Assembly (NCBI GenBank): GCA_016794565.1 | Contig: JAEUHQ010000154.1 | Coordinates: forward strand, 1 to 64,000 | Length of the DNA stretch: 64,000 nucleotides | From: Planctomycetota bacterium | Lineage (GTDB): Bacteria; Planctomycetota; UBA1135; UBA2386 | Reading direction: 5' to 3' | Part shown: piece by piece, positions 1 to 20,087 of the stretch | How the letters are laid out: each line of letters starts with the position of its first letter | Position numbering within the stretch: position 1 is the first letter of the stretch | Translations under genes and position numbers: made by a program | Notes under the pieces: model-generated | The model's input: the letters and a program-made list of their open reading frames with translations, nothing else | Database searches by the model: none | Told to the model about the DNA's origin: nothing

Positions 1-651
1 GCGGCCGCGGCCCTCGGCGCTGCGCCCGTCGCGCAGCTCGGCGCGGACGCGGAACTCCTGCTCGTGCTGGAGCCCGATCGTCTCGACGAGCTCGTACTTC
101 GGCTGGCCGATCTTGTGGTGCTGGCACCAGTGGAGGAGCGCCGTCTTGGTGTCCTTGCTGCGCGGCTCTGCGGGCTCTCCGCCGCGGCCCTTCGGCAGCA
201 CGTGGCGGCGAACGAATGCACGCGCCTTCGTGACGCCGCCGTCGAGCAGGATCGCGCCGATCACTGCTTCGACGAGATCGGCGAGGATGCGTTCGCCCTG
301 GCGCTCCGACTCGCGCAGTCCCTTGCCGGAGAGCAGGTGGTTCTGCAGGTCGAGGCGGCGGCAGACGGCGGCGAGCGGCCCGCGGCTCACGATGCGCGCC
401 CGCGTCTCGGTGAGCGCCCCTTCGGGCACCTCGTCGTGCGCGCGGAACAGCCAGTCTGCGACCGCGAAGTTGAGGAAGGCGTCGCCGAGGAACTCGAGGC
501 GCTCGTAGCTCTTCTTGCCCTCGTTGCCGAGCGACGAGTGCGACAGCGCGCGATCGAGCAGGCCGAGGTCCACGAACCGGTGGCCGAGGCGCTCGGCCAG
601 GGCGGCGAGCGTCTTCTTGCGGGCGTCTTCCTCGAGCGAGGGTCCGGGCAT
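1..651 (-). CDS. rnc: Ribonuclease III (3' end cut by window edge)
   Basis: Double-strand-specific endoribonuclease that processes rRNA precursors and structured mRNAs. The 217 visible residues begin at ATG 651. The RNase III signature ERLEFLGDA lies at residues 50-58, with catalytic Glu53 and Asp57, and the second acidic pair is Asp125/Glu128 in DLVEAVIG. A double-stranded-RNA-binding domain starts near residue 165 and runs off the left edge, so its C-terminal part is not visible. The usual length is about 220-240 aa, so only a little is missing. A TACCCT hexamer (673-668 on this strand) lies 16 bases before the ATG and may be its -10 box. The gene is divergent from the pseudokinase-caspase gene. 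Identification is secure. Confidence 0.95.
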   Translation of the reverse strand, partial: MPGPSLEEDARKKTLAALAERLGHRFVDLGLLDRALSHSSLGNEGKKSYERLEFLGDAFLNFAVADWLFRAHDEVPEGALTETRARIVSRGPLAAVCRRLDLQNHLLSGKGLRESERQGERILADLVEAVIGAILLDGGVTKARAFVRRHVLPKGRGGEPAEPRSKDTKTALLHWCQHHKIGQPKYELVETIGLQHEQEFRVRAELRDGRSAEGRGR

Positions 652-779
652 GGCGGGCGGACCGCGGAGGGTAGTGGCGTCGCCGGCGCATCTCCACCGC
701 GAGCCACGGGAGTTCTGCGCCGCGCATCCGTGTGCGGGACCCGTGCGGTTCGCCGGCTCGCGGTATGTTCCGGCCGCCC

Positions 780-2570
780 ATGCACCCGCAGCTGCCACCT
801 GCGATCGCCGCGCGTTTCCGCGTCGAAGGGGTCCTCACCGACACGCCCTTCGAGGTCACGTTGCGTGCGTTCGACGAAGTGCTGCAGCGGCCGGTCGTGC
901 TGAAGCTGCCGGCGCGCGAAGCGGCCGCGCACTGGACGGCGCCGGTGCGCGAACGGCTGCTCCGCGAGGCGCGGGCGCTGGCCCGCATCCGCCACACGGG
1001 TGTGGCTGCGATCCTCGACGTCGTCGAGACGGCCGACGGGCCGCTGCTCGTGCTCGAGGCGAACGAAGGCGAGCTGCTCGCCGATCGGTTGCGCGACGGC
1101 GCGCTCGCCGAGACCGCGACGGTCGCGCTCGGGATCGCGATCGGCGAAGCGCTGGCCCAGGTGCACGCGGAGGGCGTGGTGCATCGCGCGGTGGGGCCGT
1201 CGACGATCCGGCTTCTCGCCAGCGGCTCGGCGCGGCTCGGCGCGTTCACGTTCGCGAAGGAGTTCGGCCCGCGCGACCTCGGCACGTCGTTGCACCACCG
1301 TGCGGCCGGGACCGGACCGTTCGCCGCCGCGGGGCCGGACTACTCGGCGCCGGAGCAGGTCGCGGGCCGCGCCGCCGATCCCCGCGCCGACGTCTTCGCG
1401 CTCGGCTGCACTCTCTACCAATGCGTCGTCGGTCGCGAGCCCTCGTTCGTCGACGGCACACAGATCGAACTCGGCGCCCTGCGCACGAAGCAGCCGCGCG
1501 TCGATCCCCGCCTCGTCGAAGTGATCCGCACGTGCACGCTGTTCGCGAAGACCGCGCGCTTCTCGACGGCGGCGGACGTCGTGGCGGCGCTGCGTCGGAT
1601 CGACGGCACGGAGCGGCGGGGTGCGGCTTCGTGGTCGCCGGGAAGACGAGGCGTGCTCCTCCTGGCGGCCGCCGGACTCGTCGCGATCGGCGGCGCGTGG
1701 CTCGGGCCGTGGTCGCGCGCGGCGACGGGAGCGGACGGCGGGCGCAGTGACGGCGGCCAACGCGATCCGCGCTACACGCGCGAGTTCTCGGCCGAATACC
1801 GCAACGTGCACGGCTTGTTCGTCGGCATCGACGACTACCGCGGCACCGGGATGCACGATCTCGCGAACCCCGTGCACGAGATCGAGACCGTCGCTGCGCA
1901 GTTGCGGGCGAACGACGCCGCGTGGAAGCGCGACGGGGCCCAGGTCCTGCTCTGCGACACGTCGGCGAGCGACGCGGCGATCCGGCGCGAGTTGCAGCGC
2001 TTGCGCGGCGTCGGGACCGACGATGCGGTGCTCGTGTGGCTCGCGGGCCACGGCGTGCGGCAAGGCCGTTCGTTCGGGTTCTGCGCCCGCGACATGCGCG
2101 GTCCGTTGGAAGGCGGCAGTGGCTACCTGCGCTCCGCCGAGATCTGGACGTTCCTCGACGAATGCCCGGCGAAGCACGTGCTCGTGGTCCTCGACTGTTG
2201 CCACTCCGGAGCCGTGCTCGAAGAAGAAGCCGCGGCGGTCCGTCGTGGTCGAGCCGTCGTCGAGCAGGACGTCGTCGCGGCGCACCATCGCCGACTCTTC
2301 AGCCGCGAGTTCCTGTGTTCGAGCAGCGCGAACCAGGAAGCGAGCGACGGGCTGGGCCTGTCGCCGTTCTGCGCGCTCGTGCTCGAGGAGCTGCGGCGCC
2401 CCGCCACGCGCGAGCGGCCCTACGTCGTCGGGCGGTTCTTGTCGAGCCGCGTCGAGGAAGGCATGGACCATCGGCTCGCGCGCTTCGGTGTGCAGCAGAC
2501 GGCGCGATTCGCGCAGACCGCGACCGATGCGGGCAGCTTCGTGTTCATGCTGGCGCCGGCCGGCCGGTGA
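780..2570 (+). CDS. Pseudokinase - transmembrane - caspase-like (C14) fusion protein
   Basis: 596 aa from ATG 780 (in-frame ATGs at 765 and 732 are possible). Residues 10-275 have the fold of a Hanks-type Ser/Thr kinase: Lys42 (VLK), an alpha-C Glu in REA, APE at 190-192 and a DVFALG helix. The catalytic features are lost: the Gly-rich loop is absent, HRD is HRA at 135-137, the following Asn is Thr, and DFG is replaced by LGAF at 153-156. It should therefore be a pseudokinase. One membrane helix follows (about 291-310). Residues 340-590 form a peptidase C14 (caspase/metacaspase-like) domain with the intact dyad His424 (LAGHG) and Cys474 (DCCHSG). The dead kinase should be cytoplasmic and the protease outside, or the reverse; the sequence does not fix orientation. 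Substrate unknown. TATGTT at 764-769 is a candidate -10 box, 10 bases before the ATG. Confidence 0.85.
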   Translation: MHPQLPPAIAARFRVEGVLTDTPFEVTLRAFDEVLQRPVVLKLPAREAAAHWTAPVRERLLREARALARIRHTGVAAILDVVETADGPLLVLEANEGELLADRLRDGALAETATVALGIAIGEALAQVHAEGVVHRAVGPSTIRLLASGSARLGAFTFAKEFGPRDLGTSLHHRAAGTGPFAAAGPDYSAPEQVAGRAADPRADVFALGCTLYQCVVGREPSFVDGTQIELGALRTKQPRVDPRLVEVIRTCTLFAKTARFSTAADVVAALRRIDGTERRGAASWSPGRRGVLLLAAAGLVAIGGAWLGPWSRAATGADGGRSDGGQRDPRYTREFSAEYRNVHGLFVGIDDYRGTGMHDLANPVHEIETVAAQLRANDAAWKRDGAQVLLCDTSASDAAIRRELQRLRGVGTDDAVLVWLAGHGVRQGRSFGFCARDMRGPLEGGSGYLRSAEIWTFLDECPAKHVLVVLDCCHSGAVLEEEAAAVRRGRAVVEQDVVAAHHRRLFSREFLCSSSANQEASDGLGLSPFCALVLEELRRPATRERPYVVGRFLSSRVEEGMDHRLARFGVQQTARFAQTATDAGSFVFMLAPAGR

Positions 2571-2680
2571 CGCGCGCGCTGCCGGCCCGCCCCTGCCGTT
2601 GTCCGGCTCGTCCTGCGCCCCGTCGCCGGATCGGTCGCCATGGTCTTGCTTTGACACCGAAGTCCGATACCTGTCGTGCC

Positions 2681-3823
2681 ATGCACGCTCTTCGGCTCGG
2701 GGTCGGCCTCCTCGCACTCGTCGCGGGCTTGCGTGCACAGGCGGTCCACGTCGTCGGCGCGGGCGGGTTCTCCAGCATCGACGCGGCACTCGCGGCCTCG
2801 TCGCCGGGCGACGTGATCGACGTGCAGGCCGGGACGTGGCCGAGGTTCACCGCGGGGATCGGCGTCGTGATCCGCGGTGCATCGGGCGCGAACGTGCAGG
2901 GTGTCAGCGTCAGCGTCGCGGCGGTGCCACCGGGCCAGACGCTGCACCTGGTCGGACTGCAAATCGCCGGTCTCGCGGTGATCGGTGGCACGGTGACCAT
3001 CGACAGTTGCCAGGTGCGGCCGTTCCCGAGCGCGACGACGGAAGCCGCGCTCACGGTGGTCGGTGGTCGGGTGCACGTGCAGGGGTGCGACGTGACCGGT
3101 GCGTGGTCCGCGACGGCGCTGCCGCAGGTCGCGGCGATGAGGTGCGCGGCGAACGCGGTCGTGACCGCGATCGACAGCCAGTTCCTCGGCGGCGGTTCCG
3201 CGACGGTGTACTTCCCCGTCGCCGCGCCGGGCATCGACCTCGACCACGCGCTCTTCGAAGGCAGTCACGTCGTGGTGCGCGGCGGCTCGAGCGTCGGGGC
3301 GATCCTGGCGGCGAACGCGCTTCGCTCCGTCGCGAGCACCGTGTGGATCAGCGACTCCACCCTGCAGGGCGGCACCGAGCCGTGGGGGACCGAGTGCTGG
3401 CTCGATCCCTGGGTGTCACCCGGCGGCAACCCCGGTCGCGTGGTGCGCAGCACGCTCGTCCCCGCCGCGTGTTCGAGCGCGGTGCCGACGAACGGATCGC
3501 TGCTCGGCGTCCATCGTGTCGCGCCGTTGTCGAGCCCGGGTCCGGTGACGCTCGCCTTCACCGCCGATCCGAACGAACTCGTGGCCGTCGTGTTCGGCGT
3601 CGCGACGGGCTTCGCGGACGTGCCGGGCATCGAGCAGCCCGTGCTGGTCGATCTCGCGGGCATCGCGGTGCTCGATCTCCTGCTCGCCGATGCCGCCGGC
3701 AATGCGAACGGCGCGTGGACGATGCCGCCCGGCTTCACCGGCACGACGGTCTGGCTGCAAGGCATCGCGATCGGCGCCGGCGCCTGGCAACCGAGTCCGT
3801 TGGCCGGCGGTGTGATCCGGTAG
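2681..3823 (+). CDS. Secreted protein, probable right-handed beta-helix, with shared C-terminal module
   Basis: 380 aa starting at ATG 2681 with a signal peptide (LGVGLLALVAGLRAQA, cleavage near residue 20). The mature N-terminus (VHVVGAGGFSSIDAALAAS, then GDVIDVQAGTW) is the typical opening of pectin-lyase-fold proteins, in which periodic short strands build a helix. Repeated V/I-x-G-G-x-V steps continue to about residue 260. The last 90 residues (PVLVDLAGI..., then LQGIAIG and PLAGGVI) resemble the end of the secreted protein at 31968-33884 and may be a sorting or attachment module. No catalytic residues are recognisable and the function is unknown. It lies 110 bases after the caspase fusion gene. 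Confidence 0.75.
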   Translation: MHALRLGVGLLALVAGLRAQAVHVVGAGGFSSIDAALAASSPGDVIDVQAGTWPRFTAGIGVVIRGASGANVQGVSVSVAAVPPGQTLHLVGLQIAGLAVIGGTVTIDSCQVRPFPSATTEAALTVVGGRVHVQGCDVTGAWSATALPQVAAMRCAANAVVTAIDSQFLGGGSATVYFPVAAPGIDLDHALFEGSHVVVRGGSSVGAILAANALRSVASTVWISDSTLQGGTEPWGTECWLDPWVSPGGNPGRVVRSTLVPAACSSAVPTNGSLLGVHRVAPLSSPGPVTLAFTADPNELVAVVFGVATGFADVPGIEQPVLVDLAGIAVLDLLLADAAGNANGAWTMPPGFTGTTVWLQGIAIGAGAWQPSPLAGGVIR

Positions 3824-12586: not shown

Positions 12587-12738
12587 CGACCTTGGCGCCG
12601 CGTGTTGCAAATGCCGACGGCAGCGCGCTGCGAGCGTCACCGATCCCGGAACGGGACCGCGGCCATGGATCGGCACCACCGGGGAGACCCCGAATGCCGA
12701 TAGCGCCGAGCAACCATGCCGAGGCCCGAACTCTCCCT

Positions 12739-12742
12739 GGAG
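12739..12742 (+). promoter_or_regulatory. Shine-Dalgarno GGAG that fixes the giant prepilin start
   Basis: GGAG lies 9 bases before ATG 12752 and supports that start over the in-frame ATG at 12716, which would put 12 charged residues before the prepilin leader. Confidence 0.6.
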
Positions 12743-12751
12743 ACCAAGCCC

Positions 12752-15700
12752 ATGCGATCTTCTCCTGTTCGCCAAGAGTCAGGATTCACGTTCGCCGAAC
12801 TCGCGTTCGGGATGCTGGTCCTGGTCATCGGCGCCGTCGTGCTGATCAACCACCTGTCGGTCAACTACCAGACGACCGCCACGGAGCGCGACCGTGTCTT
12901 CGCCTACACGAAGGCGCAGGCGATCCTCGCGGAGGTGCAGGGCTACGTCGACCGCGGCCTCGTCGACGCGGCGGTCGACCTCGACGTGCTGGACGACGGC
13001 ATCGTCAACAAGTCGACGCTGTCGATCACGCAGGACTCGTTCGGCGCGCTCGTCGTGCCCGACCACATCGCGTCCAACAACTACCAGCGCAACGGGCAGT
13101 GGGTGTGGTCGCGCCGCATCACGGTGCAGCCGCTCGTCGGTCTCAACAACCGCAACGTCCGTTACGTGACCGTGCGCATCTTTCGCAAGGACCCGGCGGG
13201 CAACGACCACCCGATGGCGGACCTGTCGGCGGTCATCAACTCCGCGGGCAGCGCGTTCCCGACGACGCAGGTCTTCGACCTCTACCTCCTCGCGATCGAG
13301 AACATCCCGGGCTGGTGGGTCTTCATGGACTCGATCAAGCCGTTCGTCGAATCGATGATCACGGACCTCGAGACCAGAAACCCGGGTCTGTCGTTCCGCA
13401 CGCACTGGATCACGAAGGCGAGCTTCGGCCGCAACCAGGGCTACCGCCCGTACACGAACGACACGACGGACAGCTACGCCGTGATCCCGGACGTCTACCA
13501 CTACCCGGGTCGCATGCCGAGCGGCAATGCGTCGACGTACTACTACGTGCCCGACAACATGCGGGCGCGCGTCAACGTCGACGGCGTCGAACGCAACGGC
13601 TACAGCGGCGGCTCGACCGGCACGAACCCCGTTCCGTACGCGTTCGCGGACTACTTCAACCACGCGATGCGCTACCCGGACGAACTCGCCCTGTGGCAGG
13701 CGCGCGTGAAGGCGATCGAGGACCGTGAGCAGGACATCGCCGACGCGATCGCGGGCGGCACGACGCCGCCCCCGGAGCTCGACGACATGTCGAAGGAGCC
13801 GACGCTGCGCCTCTTCCTCGAGGATCTCAACAGCAACCCGAGCAAGTACAAGAACGCACTGCTCATCAACCTGCACGGTGAGCTGCTGCCGATGCCCGCG
13901 CTGCGCAACTACAGCGACGCGGCGAGGGACCCGGTGAACCACCCCGGCTGGCGCGTCGTGACGCACCCGGAGGAGCTGCGTACGAAGCGCAACGAGGGCG
14001 GCGTCACGGACCCGATGGTTCTCCGGATGTACGCGTACGGCAACGCGCCTTCCTGGACCGGTTCGGATCGCATGACCGACCCGATGGTGGTCGAGATCGA
14101 GGGCATGAACCTCACCGACCCGTCGGACGAGACGAAGATCGACATCGTCAACAACCCGTTGGAGATGATCCGCGGCGGCGTCCCCGTGCCGAACAGTGGC
14201 GCTGGCAGCCCCGGCCCGGTGACGTACGACACTGGTTGGACTGCGGCCACGCACGCGAGTGCGAGTCCGCAGGCCGGTGCGATGTACTACCGCTCGGACT
14301 TCGTGCCGGCCGGAGAAGAGGGCAACGCGGTCCCGTTCACGCGCATCTACTTCTACAACACGCCGCTGCACTGCAACTACGACTCGACGACCAACCGCGG
14401 GCTCACGCGAGCGAGCGCGGCGGCGATCAAGAAGTCGCACCTCTACCAGATTCCGTACATCCCGAGCCCGCTGGTTGCCGGCCCGACGTTCACGGGACGC
14501 GAACTGTTCAGCACCAGCAGCACGCTGCCGAAGAACACTGCCCGCTGGAGGCTGACGATCCGCAACACGGCCTTCACGACCGCCCAGGCGTTCGTGGACA
14601 ACACGGGTGCGGCCTACACGCCGACCACCGATCAGGTCCTGAAGATCCGCACTCGCATCGCGAGCAACTACGTCGCGAGCGGTGACACGACCTGGCACGC
14701 GAGCGGCACCGTCTACCCGACGCCGATCCAGCCCGACAACCTGTCGACCACCTACGCGTGGTGGGCGGACAGCCGGGAGGGCGTGCCGATCACCGAACGG
14801 GCGCAGTTCAACGGCGACCCGCGGCACGAGCCGTACCGCGACTGCTTCAACAACGACGCGGACTTCCCGAACGCCTACAACTGGTACCACGACAACCTCT
14901 CCGACGGTTCGGAGACGGCGAGCGGCACCGACTACGCGAGCATCGACACGGCGCGTCTGCGCGACCGCTGGAACAGCGAGATGACCGCGGACGTGCCGCG
15001 GTACATGCAGCTGCTGCGCCAGGGCCTGACCAAGAGCCAGGTCGTCTACACGACGCTCACCGGCTTCTCGTACTACTACCTCGGCCTCGGCCAGGACATC
15101 GGCTACGACGCGGCGAACGGCTACGCCTCGTCGATCCCGAGCAACATGGTGCCGCACGGCAGCACGGGCAACGGCTACATCGACACGATCATCGGCGCGC
15201 GGCGCCTCGTGCGCGAAGGCGGCGGCGGCTCGACCTACTGGTGGAGCCAGCCGTGGCTCGGGGAGCTGTATCCGGACAGCCAGGCCGCGATGTGGCTCGA
15301 CACGACCGGCGGCATCGAGATGCGCGGCAACCTGACGCCGGGAACGTCGAGCGGCCAGTTCTACCAGGACCGCTGCCGCACGGTGTACTCGGGCAGCAAC
15401 CGCCTCGCGTACGGCACGTACATGTACGACAACATGCAGCGCACCTCCGGGCCGGGCTGCACGACGCTGTTCAACATCGGCACGTCGACCTCGTCGTTCC
15501 ACCACGTGAGCAGCTCCGGCAACGGCACGCTGACCTCGGTCGGGCTGGAACTGGCCGGCAACTACAACATGACGATGCCGACTTCGGCGCCGATCACGCG
15601 CCCGTTCGGCCTCACGTTGAACGCCGCGTGCGGCGACCAGTGGTCGTACGCACCGTACGACACGAAGTACACCGCGAGCCTCTTCCGCACGTACTACACG

Positions 15701-16306
15701 CACGCGTCGGGCACGGGCTCGGGCCTCGTGAAGCTCGTCAACAACGCGGGTACGGACGCGGCGTACATCGTCGTGAACGGCATCAGCAACGCCGTCGACA
15801 ACGGCACGACGTTCATCAGCAAGTTCGCGATGCTGTCGCTGGTGCACTCGTTCTTCGAGGCGGGCAGCACGAGCAACACGCTGCGCATCCCGCAGCCGGC
15901 GCGCCTGGAGATCGAGTCGCCGACGGACATCACGGAGCTGAACGACCCGTCGACGATCGACATCCAGTACAGCGCCACGTGGACGCGCTGGGACGGCTTG
16001 CCGTACTCGGCGACCGGCACGTTCTCCGAGAACGAGGCCCTGCTGGACTACGTGCTGATGTACTCGAACGACAACGGCACCGTCTGGCGGTACGTGCAGG
16101 ACGATTCGGTCGCGACGCCCGGTACGCGTCCGACCGACCCGACCTACATCGTCGCGGACGCCGGCGCTGGCACCGAGACCTACACGTGGTCCGTGCCGTC
16201 GGGCGCGTTCCCGGAGGGCAGCTACCTGCTTCGCATCGACTGCTTCCGGCAAGGCTCGGCGCTGCACTACTCGTTCCACAAGACGAAGATCTTCATCCAG
16301 CGGTGA
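12752..16306 (+). CDS. Giant prepilin-like protein (type IV N-methylation site, 1184 aa)
   Basis: Starts MRSSPVRQ with a short basic leader, then a prepilin peptidase site SG/FTFAELAFG: cleavage after Gly11 and Glu at +5, followed by a hydrophobic helix to about residue 33. The remaining 1150 residues are extracellular in prediction and rich in Thr, Asn, Tyr and Asp. The last 120 residues (DPSTIDIQYSATW...TYTWSVP...LLRIDCFR) read like an immunoglobulin-type domain. Ordinary prepilins are 130-300 aa, so this would be a pilus-tip or surface-display protein, not a bulk pilin. The following prepilin gene starts 8 bases after the stop and shares its Shine-Dalgarno sequence with it. Function beyond export through a pilus or type II-like machine is unknown. 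Confidence 0.75.
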   Translation: MRSSPVRQESGFTFAELAFGMLVLVIGAVVLINHLSVNYQTTATERDRVFAYTKAQAILAEVQGYVDRGLVDAAVDLDVLDDGIVNKSTLSITQDSFGALVVPDHIASNNYQRNGQWVWSRRITVQPLVGLNNRNVRYVTVRIFRKDPAGNDHPMADLSAVINSAGSAFPTTQVFDLYLLAIENIPGWWVFMDSIKPFVESMITDLETRNPGLSFRTHWITKASFGRNQGYRPYTNDTTDSYAVIPDVYHYPGRMPSGNASTYYYVPDNMRARVNVDGVERNGYSGGSTGTNPVPYAFADYFNHAMRYPDELALWQARVKAIEDREQDIADAIAGGTTPPPELDDMSKEPTLRLFLEDLNSNPSKYKNALLINLHGELLPMPALRNYSDAARDPVNHPGWRVVTHPEELRTKRNEGGVTDPMVLRMYAYGNAPSWTGSDRMTDPMVVEIEGMNLTDPSDETKIDIVNNPLEMIRGGVPVPNSGAGSPGPVTYDTGWTAATHASASPQAGAMYYRSDFVPAGEEGNAVPFTRIYFYNTPLHCNYDSTTNRGLTRASAAAIKKSHLYQIPYIPSPLVAGPTFTGRELFSTSSTLPKNTARWRLTIRNTAFTTAQAFVDNTGAAYTPTTDQVLKIRTRIASNYVASGDTTWHASGTVYPTPIQPDNLSTTYAWWADSREGVPITERAQFNGDPRHEPYRDCFNNDADFPNAYNWYHDNLSDGSETASGTDYASIDTARLRDRWNSEMTADVPRYMQLLRQGLTKSQVVYTTLTGFSYYYLGLGQDIGYDAANGYASSIPSNMVPHGSTGNGYIDTIIGARRLVREGGGGSTYWWSQPWLGELYPDSQAAMWLDTTGGIEMRGNLTPGTSSGQFYQDRCRTVYSGSNRLAYGTYMYDNMQRTSGPGCTTLFNIGTSTSSFHHVSSSGNGTLTSVGLELAGNYNMTMPTSAPITRPFGLTLNAACGDQWSYAPYDTKYTASLFRTYYTHASGTGSGLVKLVNNAGTDAAYIVVNGISNAVDNGTTFISKFAMLSLVHSFFEAGSTSNTLRIPQPARLEIESPTDITELNDPSTIDIQYSATWTRWDGLPYSATGTFSENEALLDYVLMYSNDNGTVWRYVQDDSVATPGTRPTDPTYIVADAGAGTETYTWSVPSGAFPEGSYLLRIDCFRQGSALHYSFHKTKIFIQR

Positions 16307-16314
16307 GGTGCACC

Positions 16315-17343
16315 ATGAACGCTCGAACGACGAACGGGGTGGCCGGCTTCAGCTTGATCGAAGTGGTCATCGCTGCGGCGCTGCTCGCGATGATGATCTT
16401 CGCGGTGTCGACGCTGTCCGTGTCCGGCATGGAGGCGCAGGACTACTCGAAGCGGCTCAGCCGGGCGACCGAGCTGAACCAGGAGATCCTCGACCGCATC
16501 CGGCTCGAGCTCGTCTCCTCGGTTCGCACGTTCGGCAACGACACGGAAGGCAATGCGAACATCGGCGTGTTCGATCTGACCGGGGCGCCGACTCCGTTGC
16601 CGGGGTCGCGCTTCGCGACGATCGCGACCACCGGACAGGTGCAGCAGGACACCGTGTCCTCCCAGATCACGGGCAATGCGCTCTTCTTCACCAAGCTCGC
16701 GTGGAGCGACCGCATCCAGTGCCACAGTGGCGCGATGTACATGGTCGACGTGTACCGCTGGCACCTCTACTACCTGACCGCCGCCGCCGGAGGACCGACT
16801 TCCGGCAGCGCCACCGGTCTCGATCTCGTTCGCGTGGTGAGCGAACCGCTCATCGATGCGACGGGCATCGACCGCATCACGGACCCGACGGATCTCGAGG
16901 AGGTTCTCGAGCACTTCCATACTTCGAGCCCGGACGCCAACGGCGTCACGCACCCGCAGGCCATCGTGGTCTGGCGTCGCGGCGCCGACCCGGCCATCTC
17001 CAAGACTCTCCGGCAGATCGACGACAGCGACTGGTCGCTGAGCGACTCCCCGTTGTCCGGGCGGCCGAATCCGTGGCGCGTGCTGCGGGACGAGACCGAC
17101 GGACTCCTGGAGTATCGGCAGCACTCGGTCGCGACGAACTTCGCGCGGTCGGCCCTCGGGGTCGGGCGCTACAGCGTCGTCTCCACGTCCGGCAGCGGCT
17201 TCCCGCACGGGTTCGAAGTCCAGGTGGTCGGGCCCAGCTCCGCCCGCCAGGTCCTGATCCACCTGGTCGTGGCCGGCACCCAGCGGCGCGGCCAGTTGGC
17301 CTGGAGCGACATGCGCGTCGTGGTCGACGGCCGCGAGCTGTAG
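16315..17343 (+). CDS. PilW/GspJ-like prepilin
   Basis: 342 aa. The leader MNARTTNGVAG is followed by F/SLIEVVIAAALLAMM, a standard type III/IV prepilin peptidase site (Gly11, Glu at +5) and helix. The remaining 300 residues match no domain I know; the length and order after a larger prepilin suggest a minor pilin of the PilW/GspJ kind. A GAGG at 16305-16308, overlapping the stop codon of the giant prepilin gene, lies 6 bases before ATG 16315, so translation is coupled. The two products probably assemble together. Confidence 0.78.
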   Translation: MNARTTNGVAGFSLIEVVIAAALLAMMIFAVSTLSVSGMEAQDYSKRLSRATELNQEILDRIRLELVSSVRTFGNDTEGNANIGVFDLTGAPTPLPGSRFATIATTGQVQQDTVSSQITGNALFFTKLAWSDRIQCHSGAMYMVDVYRWHLYYLTAAAGGPTSGSATGLDLVRVVSEPLIDATGIDRITDPTDLEEVLEHFHTSSPDANGVTHPQAIVVWRRGADPAISKTLRQIDDSDWSLSDSPLSGRPNPWRVLRDETDGLLEYRQHSVATNFARSALGVGRYSVVSTSGSGFPHGFEVQVVGPSSARQVLIHLVVAGTQRRGQLAWSDMRVVVDGREL

Positions 17344-17380
17344 ACGGGAACGGCCCGCCGCACGCGGCCGAGACCGCGAT

Positions 17381-17396
17381 TCCGGCCCGGGCCGGA
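17381..17396. repeat. 16-bp perfect palindrome
   Basis: TCCGGCCCGGGCCGGA reads the same on both strands. It lies 38 bases after the prepilin stop and 75 bases before rpoZ. It could be an operator half-site pair or the remnant of a terminator stem, but there is no loop and no T-run. Confidence 0.4.
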
Positions 17397-17471
17397 GTCG
17401 CCCATTGATCGGCCGGGGGCACGTCCCTACTCTGCTCGGCCCTCCCAGGTCCCCGTTCGCAGCAAAACCCC

Positions 17472-17719: not shown

Positions 17720-19468
17720 TCACGAACGCGACTGGCGTCGTTCGCTCTCGATGGTCTCGATCGCGAGCAGTAGTTCGTCCGGAGTGCGCGCCGTGCCGCG
17801 CCGCGTGCGACCGACGGTCAAGTGGACCACGGGTGTCGCTTCGACGGTGAACCCGCTGCGGCCCAGCAGCACGGGGTCGTGGCGCGGGTCGAGCATCTGC
17901 ACGATGCGCGACGGTACGTAGGTCGACAGCGCCGTGCGCCGCAGTTCGACCGACGCGGCTTCGTCGCGGTTGCCGACGATGGTGAGGAACAGCGGCTCGT
18001 AGAAGATGAGGTCGATCGCGCGCCCGTAGCCCGCGACGTAGTAGCCGTACTCCTTGTAGTCCTGCGCGAACGATTCGAGTGCGGCGACGGCCTCGTCGTA
18101 GAACTCGGGCCGCCGCGACAGGTAGGAGAGGCGCACGAGGGACTCGGCCAGCGTCGCGTTGTCGAGGATGGAACGGTTGCGCCGGCGCATCGACCCCTTG
18201 TTGCCGGGATCGTGCAGGATGTCGAAGAAGCCGCCGTTCGGCGCCTTGTGGCGTGCGATGACTCGCTCGGCGATGGCTTCGGCGGGCAGCAGGAGGTCGG
18301 CGTCGCCGGTGTTCTGCGACGCGTCGATCAGCGCGCGGATCAGCAGGGCCTGGTCGGCCAGCATCCCGGGCAGGTGGTAGGTGCCGTCCCAGTAGTGGAA
18401 GACGTCCTGTCCGTCGTAGAGGTTCTCGAGCAGGAAGCGCAGCGTCTCCATCGCGGTGTCGCGCCACTCCGGGTGTCCGAGCACCGCCGCGGCCTTGAGC
18501 AGGCTCGAAACGGCCAGTGCGTTGGCGCCGCAGTACACCGTGCGATCGATCGACGGCTGCTGTCGTTCGCGCATCGCACGACTGCCGGCGAACGTGTCCG
18601 CGTCCCCGTGCTGGCTGCCGGCGAAGGCTCCCGTGTGCGCATCGCGCATCACGAGGAGCATCCACCCCGCGATGCCCTCGGCGGTGGAGCGGTACGCGTC
18701 GCGACCGAAGACCTGGTACCCCTCGAGGTAGGCGCGCATCACGAGCGCGTTCTGGTCCAGCAGCTTCTCGTGGTTCGGAGTCTGCCAGTCGGGAGTGCGC
18801 GAGTAGCGGAAGAAGCCGCCTTCGACCGTGTCGTGCAGCGGGCTCTCCATCATGCGATCGAGGGTCAGCGTGACGACCTCGCGCATGCGTTCGTCGTCGC
18901 GCTTGCTGACCTGTACGAGCGCGAAGTCGAGCGCTTCAGGGTGGGGGAACTTGCTGCCTTCGCCGAAGCCGCCGTAGCGGTGGTCGAGCTTCTCGTAGAT
19001 CGCGTCGACGATGTCGTCGACCATCTCGCGGCGCAGCTTCGTGCGCGGCGGCGCGGGCGAACGATCGTCGCGATGGGCCCACAGCTCCCGCAGACCGCGC
19101 CGGATGTCCTCCTTGTTGGTCTTCCAGGTGGTTCGCACGCGTTCGATCTGCGCACGAAGCTGTTCGGCGGACAGCCAGTTCTGGTGCGCGATGAGTTCGC
19201 CGTCCGGCGTGAGCCACGCGATCGTCGGCCAGCCACCGGTGCCGTAGCGCTGGTTCACGTCGGGCCGGCGTTCGGCGTCGACGTGGACCGGGACCACCGA
19301 GTCGTGGACCGCGGCGACGACCTGCGGGTCGGCGAAGCTCGTCGCGAGCAGCTCGCGGCAGTGCTGGCACCATGGCACCGTGAGGAGCATGAGCATCGGA
19401 CGGTCCGCGGCCGCGGCGGCCTTCAGGGTCGCCGGTTCGAAGTGCTGCCAACGGATGGACTCGGTCAT
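17720..19468 (-). CDS. DUF255 protein, thioredoxin fold plus six-hairpin domain (YyaL/SSP411-like)
   Basis: 582 aa from ATG 19468. An N-terminal thioredoxin-like domain (about 1-120) carries the redox motif CQHC at residues 34-37 and the cis-Pro loop GGWPT. From about 150 to 580 an alpha/alpha toroid follows with repeated aromatic-Gly helix pairs (RYGGFGEGSKFPHPE, GGFFRYS, DQNALVMRAYLEGYQ). YyaL and human SPATA20 share this architecture; the role is poorly defined. Typical members are 600-690 aa, so this one is slightly short. It lies 67 bases downstream of the ribosome silencing factor. Confidence 0.88.
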   Translation of the reverse strand: MTESIRWQHFEPATLKAAAAADRPMLMLLTVPWCQHCRELLATSFADPQVVAAVHDSVVPVHVDAERRPDVNQRYGTGGWPTIAWLTPDGELIAHQNWLSAEQLRAQIERVRTTWKTNKEDIRRGLRELWAHRDDRSPAPPRTKLRREMVDDIVDAIYEKLDHRYGGFGEGSKFPHPEALDFALVQVSKRDDERMREVVTLTLDRMMESPLHDTVEGGFFRYSRTPDWQTPNHEKLLDQNALVMRAYLEGYQVFGRDAYRSTAEGIAGWMLLVMRDAHTGAFAGSQHGDADTFAGSRAMRERQQPSIDRTVYCGANALAVSSLLKAAAVLGHPEWRDTAMETLRFLLENLYDGQDVFHYWDGTYHLPGMLADQALLIRALIDASQNTGDADLLLPAEAIAERVIARHKAPNGGFFDILHDPGNKGSMRRRNRSILDNATLAESLVRLSYLSRRPEFYDEAVAALESFAQDYKEYGYYVAGYGRAIDLIFYEPLFLTIVGNRDEAASVELRRTALSTYVPSRIVQMLDPRHDPVLLGRSGFTVEATPVVHLTVGRTRRGTARTPDELLLAIETIESERRQSRS

Positions 19469-19535
19469 GCGGAGGGGGATGAGGCCCGCGCGACGATCGC
19501 GTCGTGGTGCGGCGACCGGGCGCGTGGCCCGCGGT

Positions 19536-20087
19536 TCAGCGGGGCGGCGGCGTCTTCGGGTCGCGTGGTTCGAGGGCGCCCAGCGATCCGAGGCCGAAGC
19601 CTTCGAGCGTCGGGTGACGGATCTCGACCTTGGCGGATTCCTTCGGCGCGCTCGGGGTGAACGGCACGCGAGGCACGTCGGCCCACAGGGCTTCGAGCCC
19701 GTAGTACTCACGCGCCTCTGGCAGGAACAGGTGCACCACGACGTCGTCGAAGTCGAGCAGGACCCAGTTCGACTCCTCGGTCTCGAGGCCGCCCGTGTTG
19801 CGGCGGCGCCGGCCGCGGGTGGCCTTGCTCTCGAGGTCGAGTTCCTTCGCGAGCGACTGTCCTTGCCGGGTGCTCTGCACGGTGGCGATCACGAAGTAGT
19901 CGGCGATCACGAGCGGGCCGGAGACGTCGAGGATCGTGATGTCCTTCGCTTGTTTCTCGTCGAGCCGCTGCGCGATCGAGAGGGCCATCTGCAGCGTGGC
20001 GGGGTCGGGGGTGCGGGCGGGGCGACGTGAACGCTCGGGTGCGGTGGAGCTCAACGATGGGTTCTCTCTGCGTGGTGATGGACGCAC
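19536..20087 (-). CDS. rsfS: Ribosome silencing factor RsfS
   Basis: 183 aa if started at GTG 20087, or 150 aa from ATG 19988. The DUF143 core begins near MALSIAQRL and includes DITILDV, DYFVIATVQSTRQ, NWVLLDFDDVVVHLF and EAREYYGLEALWAD, all family landmarks. RsfS binds L14 and blocks subunit joining when nutrients are short. I keep GTG 20087 because TATCCT (20103-20098 on this strand) lies 10 bases before it, as at other starts here; the 33-residue extension is Arg/Pro-rich and unlike the family, so the ATG start remains possible. A 50-residue acidic-basic tail (PSAPKESAKVE...) is also additional. Confidence 0.9.
   Translation of the reverse strand: MRPSPRRENPSLSSTAPERSRRPARTPDPATLQMALSIAQRLDEKQAKDITILDVSGPLVIADYFVIATVQSTRQGQSLAKELDLESKATRGRRRRNTGGLETEESNWVLLDFDDVVVHLFLPEAREYYGLEALWADVPRVPFTPSAPKESAKVEIRHPTLEGFGLGSLGALEPRDPKTPPPR

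Follow-up and report, generated by a model that had tools for sequence, protein, structure and literature searches.

A pseudokinase joined through a predicted transmembrane helix to a caspase-like protease in Planctomycetota

The window considered here, a 64,000-nucleotide stretch of a planctomycete contig, contains close to its beginning a gene for a 596-residue protein, whose start codon is backed by orthologues that begin in register. Pfam searches recover two domains in this protein, namely Pkinase at residues 35-228 (E 9.9e-20, above the cut-off) and Peptidase_C14 at residues 346-522 (E 1.3e-6; 28.7 bits against a cut-off of 21.4). The features of the gene are listed below, with counts referring to the 20 full-length members of the family:

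780-2570, forward strand: whole gene, pseudokinase - transmembrane helix - C14 protease (596-aa open reading frame)
804-1634, forward strand: pseudokinase domain, residues 9-285 (Pfam PF00069; Foldseek matches to PknA, PknB and the Rv3910/MviN pseudokinase)
903-905, forward strand: β3 Lys42, retained in the window protein (Lys in 14/20)
1182-1190, forward strand: HRA (H135-R136-A137) replacing HRD (Asp lost in 18/20)
1242-1250, forward strand: AFT (A155-F156-T157) replacing DFG (Asp lost in 20/20; G in 14, A in 5, S in 1)
1287-1289, forward strand: Ser170, putative phospho-acceptor in the hypervariable activation loop (S in 19, T in 1)
1650-1706, forward strand: predicted transmembrane helix, residues 291-309 (positive flank on the kinase side)
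1797-2549, forward strand: C14 caspase-like domain, residues 340-590 (PF00656; metacaspase profile matches; Foldseek)
2049-2051, forward strand: catalytic His424 in AGHG (20/20)
2193-2201, forward strand: Asp472-Cys473-Cys474, with Cys474 catalytic (Cys474 in 20/20; Asp472 invariant)

The gene is preceded by a divergent ribonuclease III gene (1-798, reverse strand), the longest frames of the two slightly overlapping, and is followed by an open frame (2627-3823, forward strand) that lacks a Pfam match and whose start resembles a signal peptide (MHALRLGVGLLALVAGLRAQA). Farther downstream on the forward strand, long open frames at 12716-16303, 16308-17405 and 17822-19657 (1196, 366 and 612 aa) returned no Pfam match at 0.001 and are regarded as putative genes.

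The N-terminal half adopts a Hanks-type kinase fold: a sequence search of the PDB gave PknB and PknA as the best matches, and a Foldseek search with an AlphaFold model of this half recovered PknA, PknB and the Rv3910/MviN pseudokinase. The AlphaFold models are of moderate quality (mean pLDDT 61.8 and 62.9), with a poor activation loop and p10 region, and are used here for the fold only; a full-length model, built from 4 sequences, is too weak for judging the ATP pocket. The first-pass annotation had described a kinase that has lost the Gly loop, the HRD Asp and DFG, and all three losses are seen: the Gly-loop stretch reads VLTDTPFEVTL, HRA stands in place of HRD, and AFT in place of DFG (the 'LGAF' of that annotation being L153-F156). 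The protein thus combines the two general hallmarks of bacterial Ser/Thr pseudokinases, a Hanks-type fold and the loss of both the HRD and DFG aspartates. In addition to Lys42, it retains the αC Glu63, the APE motif and Asp204. It is the sole readable kinase fold of its genome without a catalytic-loop Asp; all the other kinases with a readable catalytic loop have this residue (as HRD, HCD, HLD or HFD), and DFG or a close form is found in nearly all of the others. The earlier view that direct phosphorylation is unlikely is reasonable for the domain as an enzyme, but the same domain may well be a substrate.

The C-terminal half displays a caspase-like p20 fold, whose p10 part is not resolved in the model, and His424 and Cys474 lie at exactly the positions first reported. 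Profile searches with the C14 domain recovered plant, trypanosome and yeast metacaspases, the bacterial protein GSU0716 and MALT1; Foldseek with the model of this half likewise retrieved GSU0716, MALT1 and metacaspases. Asp472 would be expected to mark a basic P1 pocket, and its invariance is compatible with cleavage after Arg/Lys. The protease would probably cleave after basic residues, a P1 preference described for the C14B group (PMC6426788). With the model for the EACC1-associated caspase (NF047832) the protein scores 67.8 bits, below the cut-off of 140.

In a profile search covering 154 genomes from the order, 16 full-length proteins were recovered, after which the next score falls from 468 to 261 bits. 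The class and the order comprise the same 154 genomes, so a class-level search adds nothing, and a sample of 392 genomes from the phylum yielded four further members, from other families. All 20 of these Planctomycetota proteins have the same layout, in agreement with the initial description of a pseudokinase and an intact caspase-like protease in a single-pass chain. The DFG Asp is absent from every member and the HRD Asp is present in only two; the Gly loop and the catalytic-loop Lys are missing in all 20 and the Asn in most, whereas the protease His and Cys are present throughout. In the two proteins with HRD (L059 of G141 and L143 of G197) the DFG Asp is missing, as are the Lys and Asn of the catalytic loop; these two may be intermediate or reverted states. 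The replacements at the lost kinase sites form no common set except for [GAS]F. None of the members from which the search profile was built has HRD; querying with the C14 half only, which is blind to the state of the kinase, likewise brought up no member of the clade with an intact kinase. As the first reading had anticipated, the kinase residues are lost clade-wide while the His-Cys dyad is kept, and neither a homologue with both HRD and DFG nor one without the dyad occurs (0/20 in each case).

As the relatives are too diverged for dN/dS, selection was gauged by the relative conservation of the two halves. Pairwise identity among the 20 members averages 41.2% for the kinase half and 34.9% for the C14 half, dropping to 19.6% across the linker and transmembrane region, and the kinase half is the more conserved of the two domains in 167 of the 190 pairs. 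The pseudokinases group together as a single clade (support 100/99) in a tree that includes 50 kinases of the genome. The pattern across the 20 members and the better conserved kinase half rule out a lone decayed copy. On these comparisons we judge that the loss of kinase residues is old and clade-wide and that the kinase half is under selection; because the design is kept in at least 20 Planctomycetota proteins, the dead kinase is best regarded as a working part, not a wreck.

One strong hydrophobic stretch separates the two domains in all 16 members from the order (at about residues 291-309 in the window protein). The 15 residues preceding it are net positive in 15 of the 16, and the 15 following it carry about no net charge on average. 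Because the positive flank is on the kinase side, the positive-inside rule predicts, from charge and hydropathy alone, that the kinase is probably cytoplasmic and the C14 protease extracytoplasmic. Such a topology fits both the PknB-type receptors and related C14 proteases with signal peptides. The suggestion of a self-destruct switch acting in the cytoplasm is accordingly not borne out, as the charge pattern puts the protease outside and the sister C14 proteases are exported.

These sister proteases are associated with active kinases. The same genome codes for a second kinase-transmembrane-C14 fusion (G000 contig C162, L078, 1563-5315; 1251 aa), in which the kinase, here termed kinase A, is intact and the C14 domain is of a longer type. 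Kinase A represents a clade of 14 in the order, recovered by the tree. The exported C14 protease of this second type is fused to kinase A in this genome and adjoins the kinase A gene in seven relatives (on the same strand in four, divergent in three); signal peptides are found on the sister C14 proteases that go with active kinases. Kinase A is also linked to the pseudokinase itself. In G014 a single 712-aa chain contains kinase A and, after it, a pseudokinase from this clade, with neither helix nor C14 domain (L060 / L137, 9059-11197), a layout reminiscent of the JAK-type kinase-pseudokinase tandems, and in G013 the kinase A gene adjoins the pseudokinase-C14 gene on the same strand. Within the family, 9 genomes have both, one has the pseudokinase only, one kinase A only and 23 neither (Fisher 1.8e-6); correction on a TypA tree leaves 3 independent pairs (3:0, p 0.25, not significant), which agree with the expectation in most draws and contradict it in none. 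With only these 3 informative pairs, co-occurrence is weakened as proof of partnership, and kinase A is undetectable in six of the 16 pseudokinase genomes of the order. We take kinase A as the best candidate partner of the pseudokinase.

Four further genomes have an active kinase gene tail-to-tail with the pseudokinase gene, across a gap of 10-390 bases. These kinases belong to different subfamilies, which rules them out as one orthologous partner. Three of them come from three distant families (G028, L135 5326-8148; G061, L139 4342-6594; G375, L222 2539-4905); Pfam detects an FGE-sulfatase domain in the first, and the C-termini of the other two look similar. Because none of the 52 kinase domains of the window's own genome has another within 4 kb, a kinase gene next to the pseudokinase gene would appear to be an unusual neighborhood, with this one-genome control being a weak one.

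Ser170 stands out in an otherwise hypervariable activation loop, and the position before it is Ser/Thr in 19 of the 20 members. The active kinases of the genome have a conserved Thr nearby, the loop alignment being uncertain, and the conserved Ser is absent from the G014 tandem copy. As a catalytically dead domain retains Ser/Thr at this position, the pattern suggests that Ser170 is phosphorylated by another kinase. Two residues, Arg12 and Leu35, do not vary among the 20 members, and by our own count of positions we take them to occupy the places of Arg10 and Leu33 in the N-lobe dimer of PknB. The position of PknB Asp76 is more variable (D in 9, E in 5, W in 5 and T in 1).

These observations lead us to favor, tentatively and at somewhat less than even confidence, a model in which the protein is a PknB-like receptor through which an active kinase gates an extracytoplasmic protease. 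It would be a single-pass, receptor-like protein with the PknB layout, in which the dead kinase fold in the cytoplasm serves as a docking, dimerization and phospho-acceptor module and the C14 protease outside as the output. An active Hanks-type kinase would pair with the pseudokinase and phosphorylate it; the pairing or a conformational change would be conveyed across the membrane, and the C14 domains would be drawn together or apart, switching the protease. The domains, the residue losses, the dyad, their clade-wide conservation, the charge bias around the helix and the fusion and neighbor relations are the sequence-level basis of this model, which goes beyond them in positing a particular partner, phosphorylation, a direction of signaling, protease activity and a substrate. 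A more doubtful extension is a paired transmembrane switch, in which the active kinase and the pseudokinase would pair in the cytoplasm and each control its own caspase-like protease outside. If true, proximity on one side of the membrane would set proteolysis on the other, in a bacterial kinase-pseudokinase-caspase relay without a described counterpart.

The flow from kinase sensor to protease output, as first proposed, is one of two possible directions. In the main rival to the receptor model the signal would run outside-in, with the C14 domain acting as an extracytoplasmic sensor, through self-cleavage or ligand binding, and the pseudokinase allosterically switching a cytoplasmic active kinase. 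The PknB-type receptors, with the same layout, do sense with their outer domain, and the kinase A-pseudokinase chain of G014 would suit an allosteric kinase regulator; however, the invariance of the dyad implies selection for catalysis, with which a pure ligand sensor could dispense, and we consider this direction rather unlikely. A little further down the scale, and also unlikely, is a role for the pseudokinase as nothing more than a scaffold or oligomerization module at the membrane, serving a housekeeping extracytoplasmic protease with no regulated phospho-signal. The retention of residues at the dimer positions would agree with such a role, as would the finding that the pseudokinase-C14 gene has no conserved operon partner outside one genus, but neither the conserved Ser/Thr in an otherwise free activation loop nor the ties to active kinases would be expected of it.

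That the protease acts inside the cell as a self-destruct switch appears improbable: while cell death is the role commonly given to caspase homologues, and predictions have put C14 domains on one side of the membrane or the other (PMC3501461), the net positive charge flanking the helix lies towards the kinase in the family as a whole, the sister C14 proteases have signal peptides, and the helix-less G014 chain sets the pseudokinase beside a cytoplasmic kinase. Residual activity of the kinase fold through a different chemistry or with atypical residues, like that of SelO or SidJ, would be consistent with the β3 Lys in 14/20 members and the αC Glu in 18/20, but we deem it very improbable in view of the absence of the Gly loop, the DFG Asp and the catalytic-loop Lys from all members and of the Asn from most, with no replacement set shared besides [GAS]F. 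It is scarcely credible, despite the lost catalytic residues, that the kinase domain is decaying debris borne by a useful protease, as, over 20 open reading frames, this half is conserved better than the protease half, and it forms one clade with conserved new motifs.

Among known systems a close parallel to the receptor model is provided by mycobacterial MviN/Rv3910 (ActPs3; PDB 3otv, 3oun, 3uqc): PknB phosphorylates its pseudokinase, which recruits FhaA and dimerizes back-to-back (PMC6180346, PMC12599244). It too is a cytoplasmic Hanks-type pseudokinase in a membrane protein, and is among the best Foldseek matches, but it is actinobacterial and is borne on a proposed lipid II flippase instead of a protease; moreover, the activation-loop deletion of ActPs3 is absent here, the loop being at least as long as in the genome's own active kinases. 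The PknB/PknA-type receptors, the best matches in both sequence and fold, share the cytoplasmic kinase fold, single helix and extracytoplasmic C-terminal domain, and differ in that here the catalytic residues are lost and a C14 protease is found, with no PASTA domains. The C14 metacaspases/orthocaspases and paracaspases (GSU0716, MCA2, AtMC4, MALT1) have the same p20-like fold, His-Cys dyad and Asp two residues before the Cys, whereas the present version is tethered behind a pseudokinase across the membrane. The kinase A-C14 module of contig C162 and its relatives resembles it in combining a kinase fold, a helix and an exported C14 domain, but kinase A is catalytically intact and its C14 domain is longer, of another type and with its own tail. 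Inactivated kinases among the effectors of vWA-MoxR conflict systems, and the EACC1-caspase systems (Kaur et al., PMC7159879), offer a precedent for non-enzymatic kinase domains and caspases in bacterial signaling; no vWA, MoxR or EACC1 partner was seen here, EACC1 having been sought without a dedicated model. Matches to PADLOC PD-T4-6 and other defense kinases reflect generic kinase similarity, as the same models score active kinases in this set of genomes much higher.

Bacterial pseudokinases are almost unstudied. A 2025 review describes seven families and mentions neither Planctomycetota nor a protease partner (PMC12599244); for none of the families reported (ActPs1-3, GLW, CP1, DYD and DLHK) are planctomycete members or a caspase or peptidase partner described. 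A survey of planctomycete kinomes excluded any kinase domain lacking the Lys-Asp-Asp sites before it turned to domain architectures (PMC11032199), and proteins of this kind would therefore be missing from it. In the open-licence literature, subscription papers lying outside this coverage, we found no metacaspase-pseudokinase fusion and no planctomycete pseudokinase family. The covalent junction of a dead kinase and an intact enzyme means that pseudokinase function would be measurable through the protease activity of the same chain. A further suggestion from this family is that certain caspase homologues of bacteria work outside the cytoplasm, as proteases controlled by kinases, and not as death enzymes within the cell.

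A comparable design is found in a second lineage, in family f5 of the order, which has three complete proteins (L223, L225 and L226, from G087, G067 and G037) with a degenerate kinase (HRN or HRG, and a β3 Arg) followed by a helix and a C14 domain with an intact dyad; DFG is present in one of them and GFG in two. Because the f5 kinase domains, two of which were included in the tree, fall outside the 20-member pseudokinase clade, the combination of a dead kinase with a live C14 protease seems to have arisen at least twice.
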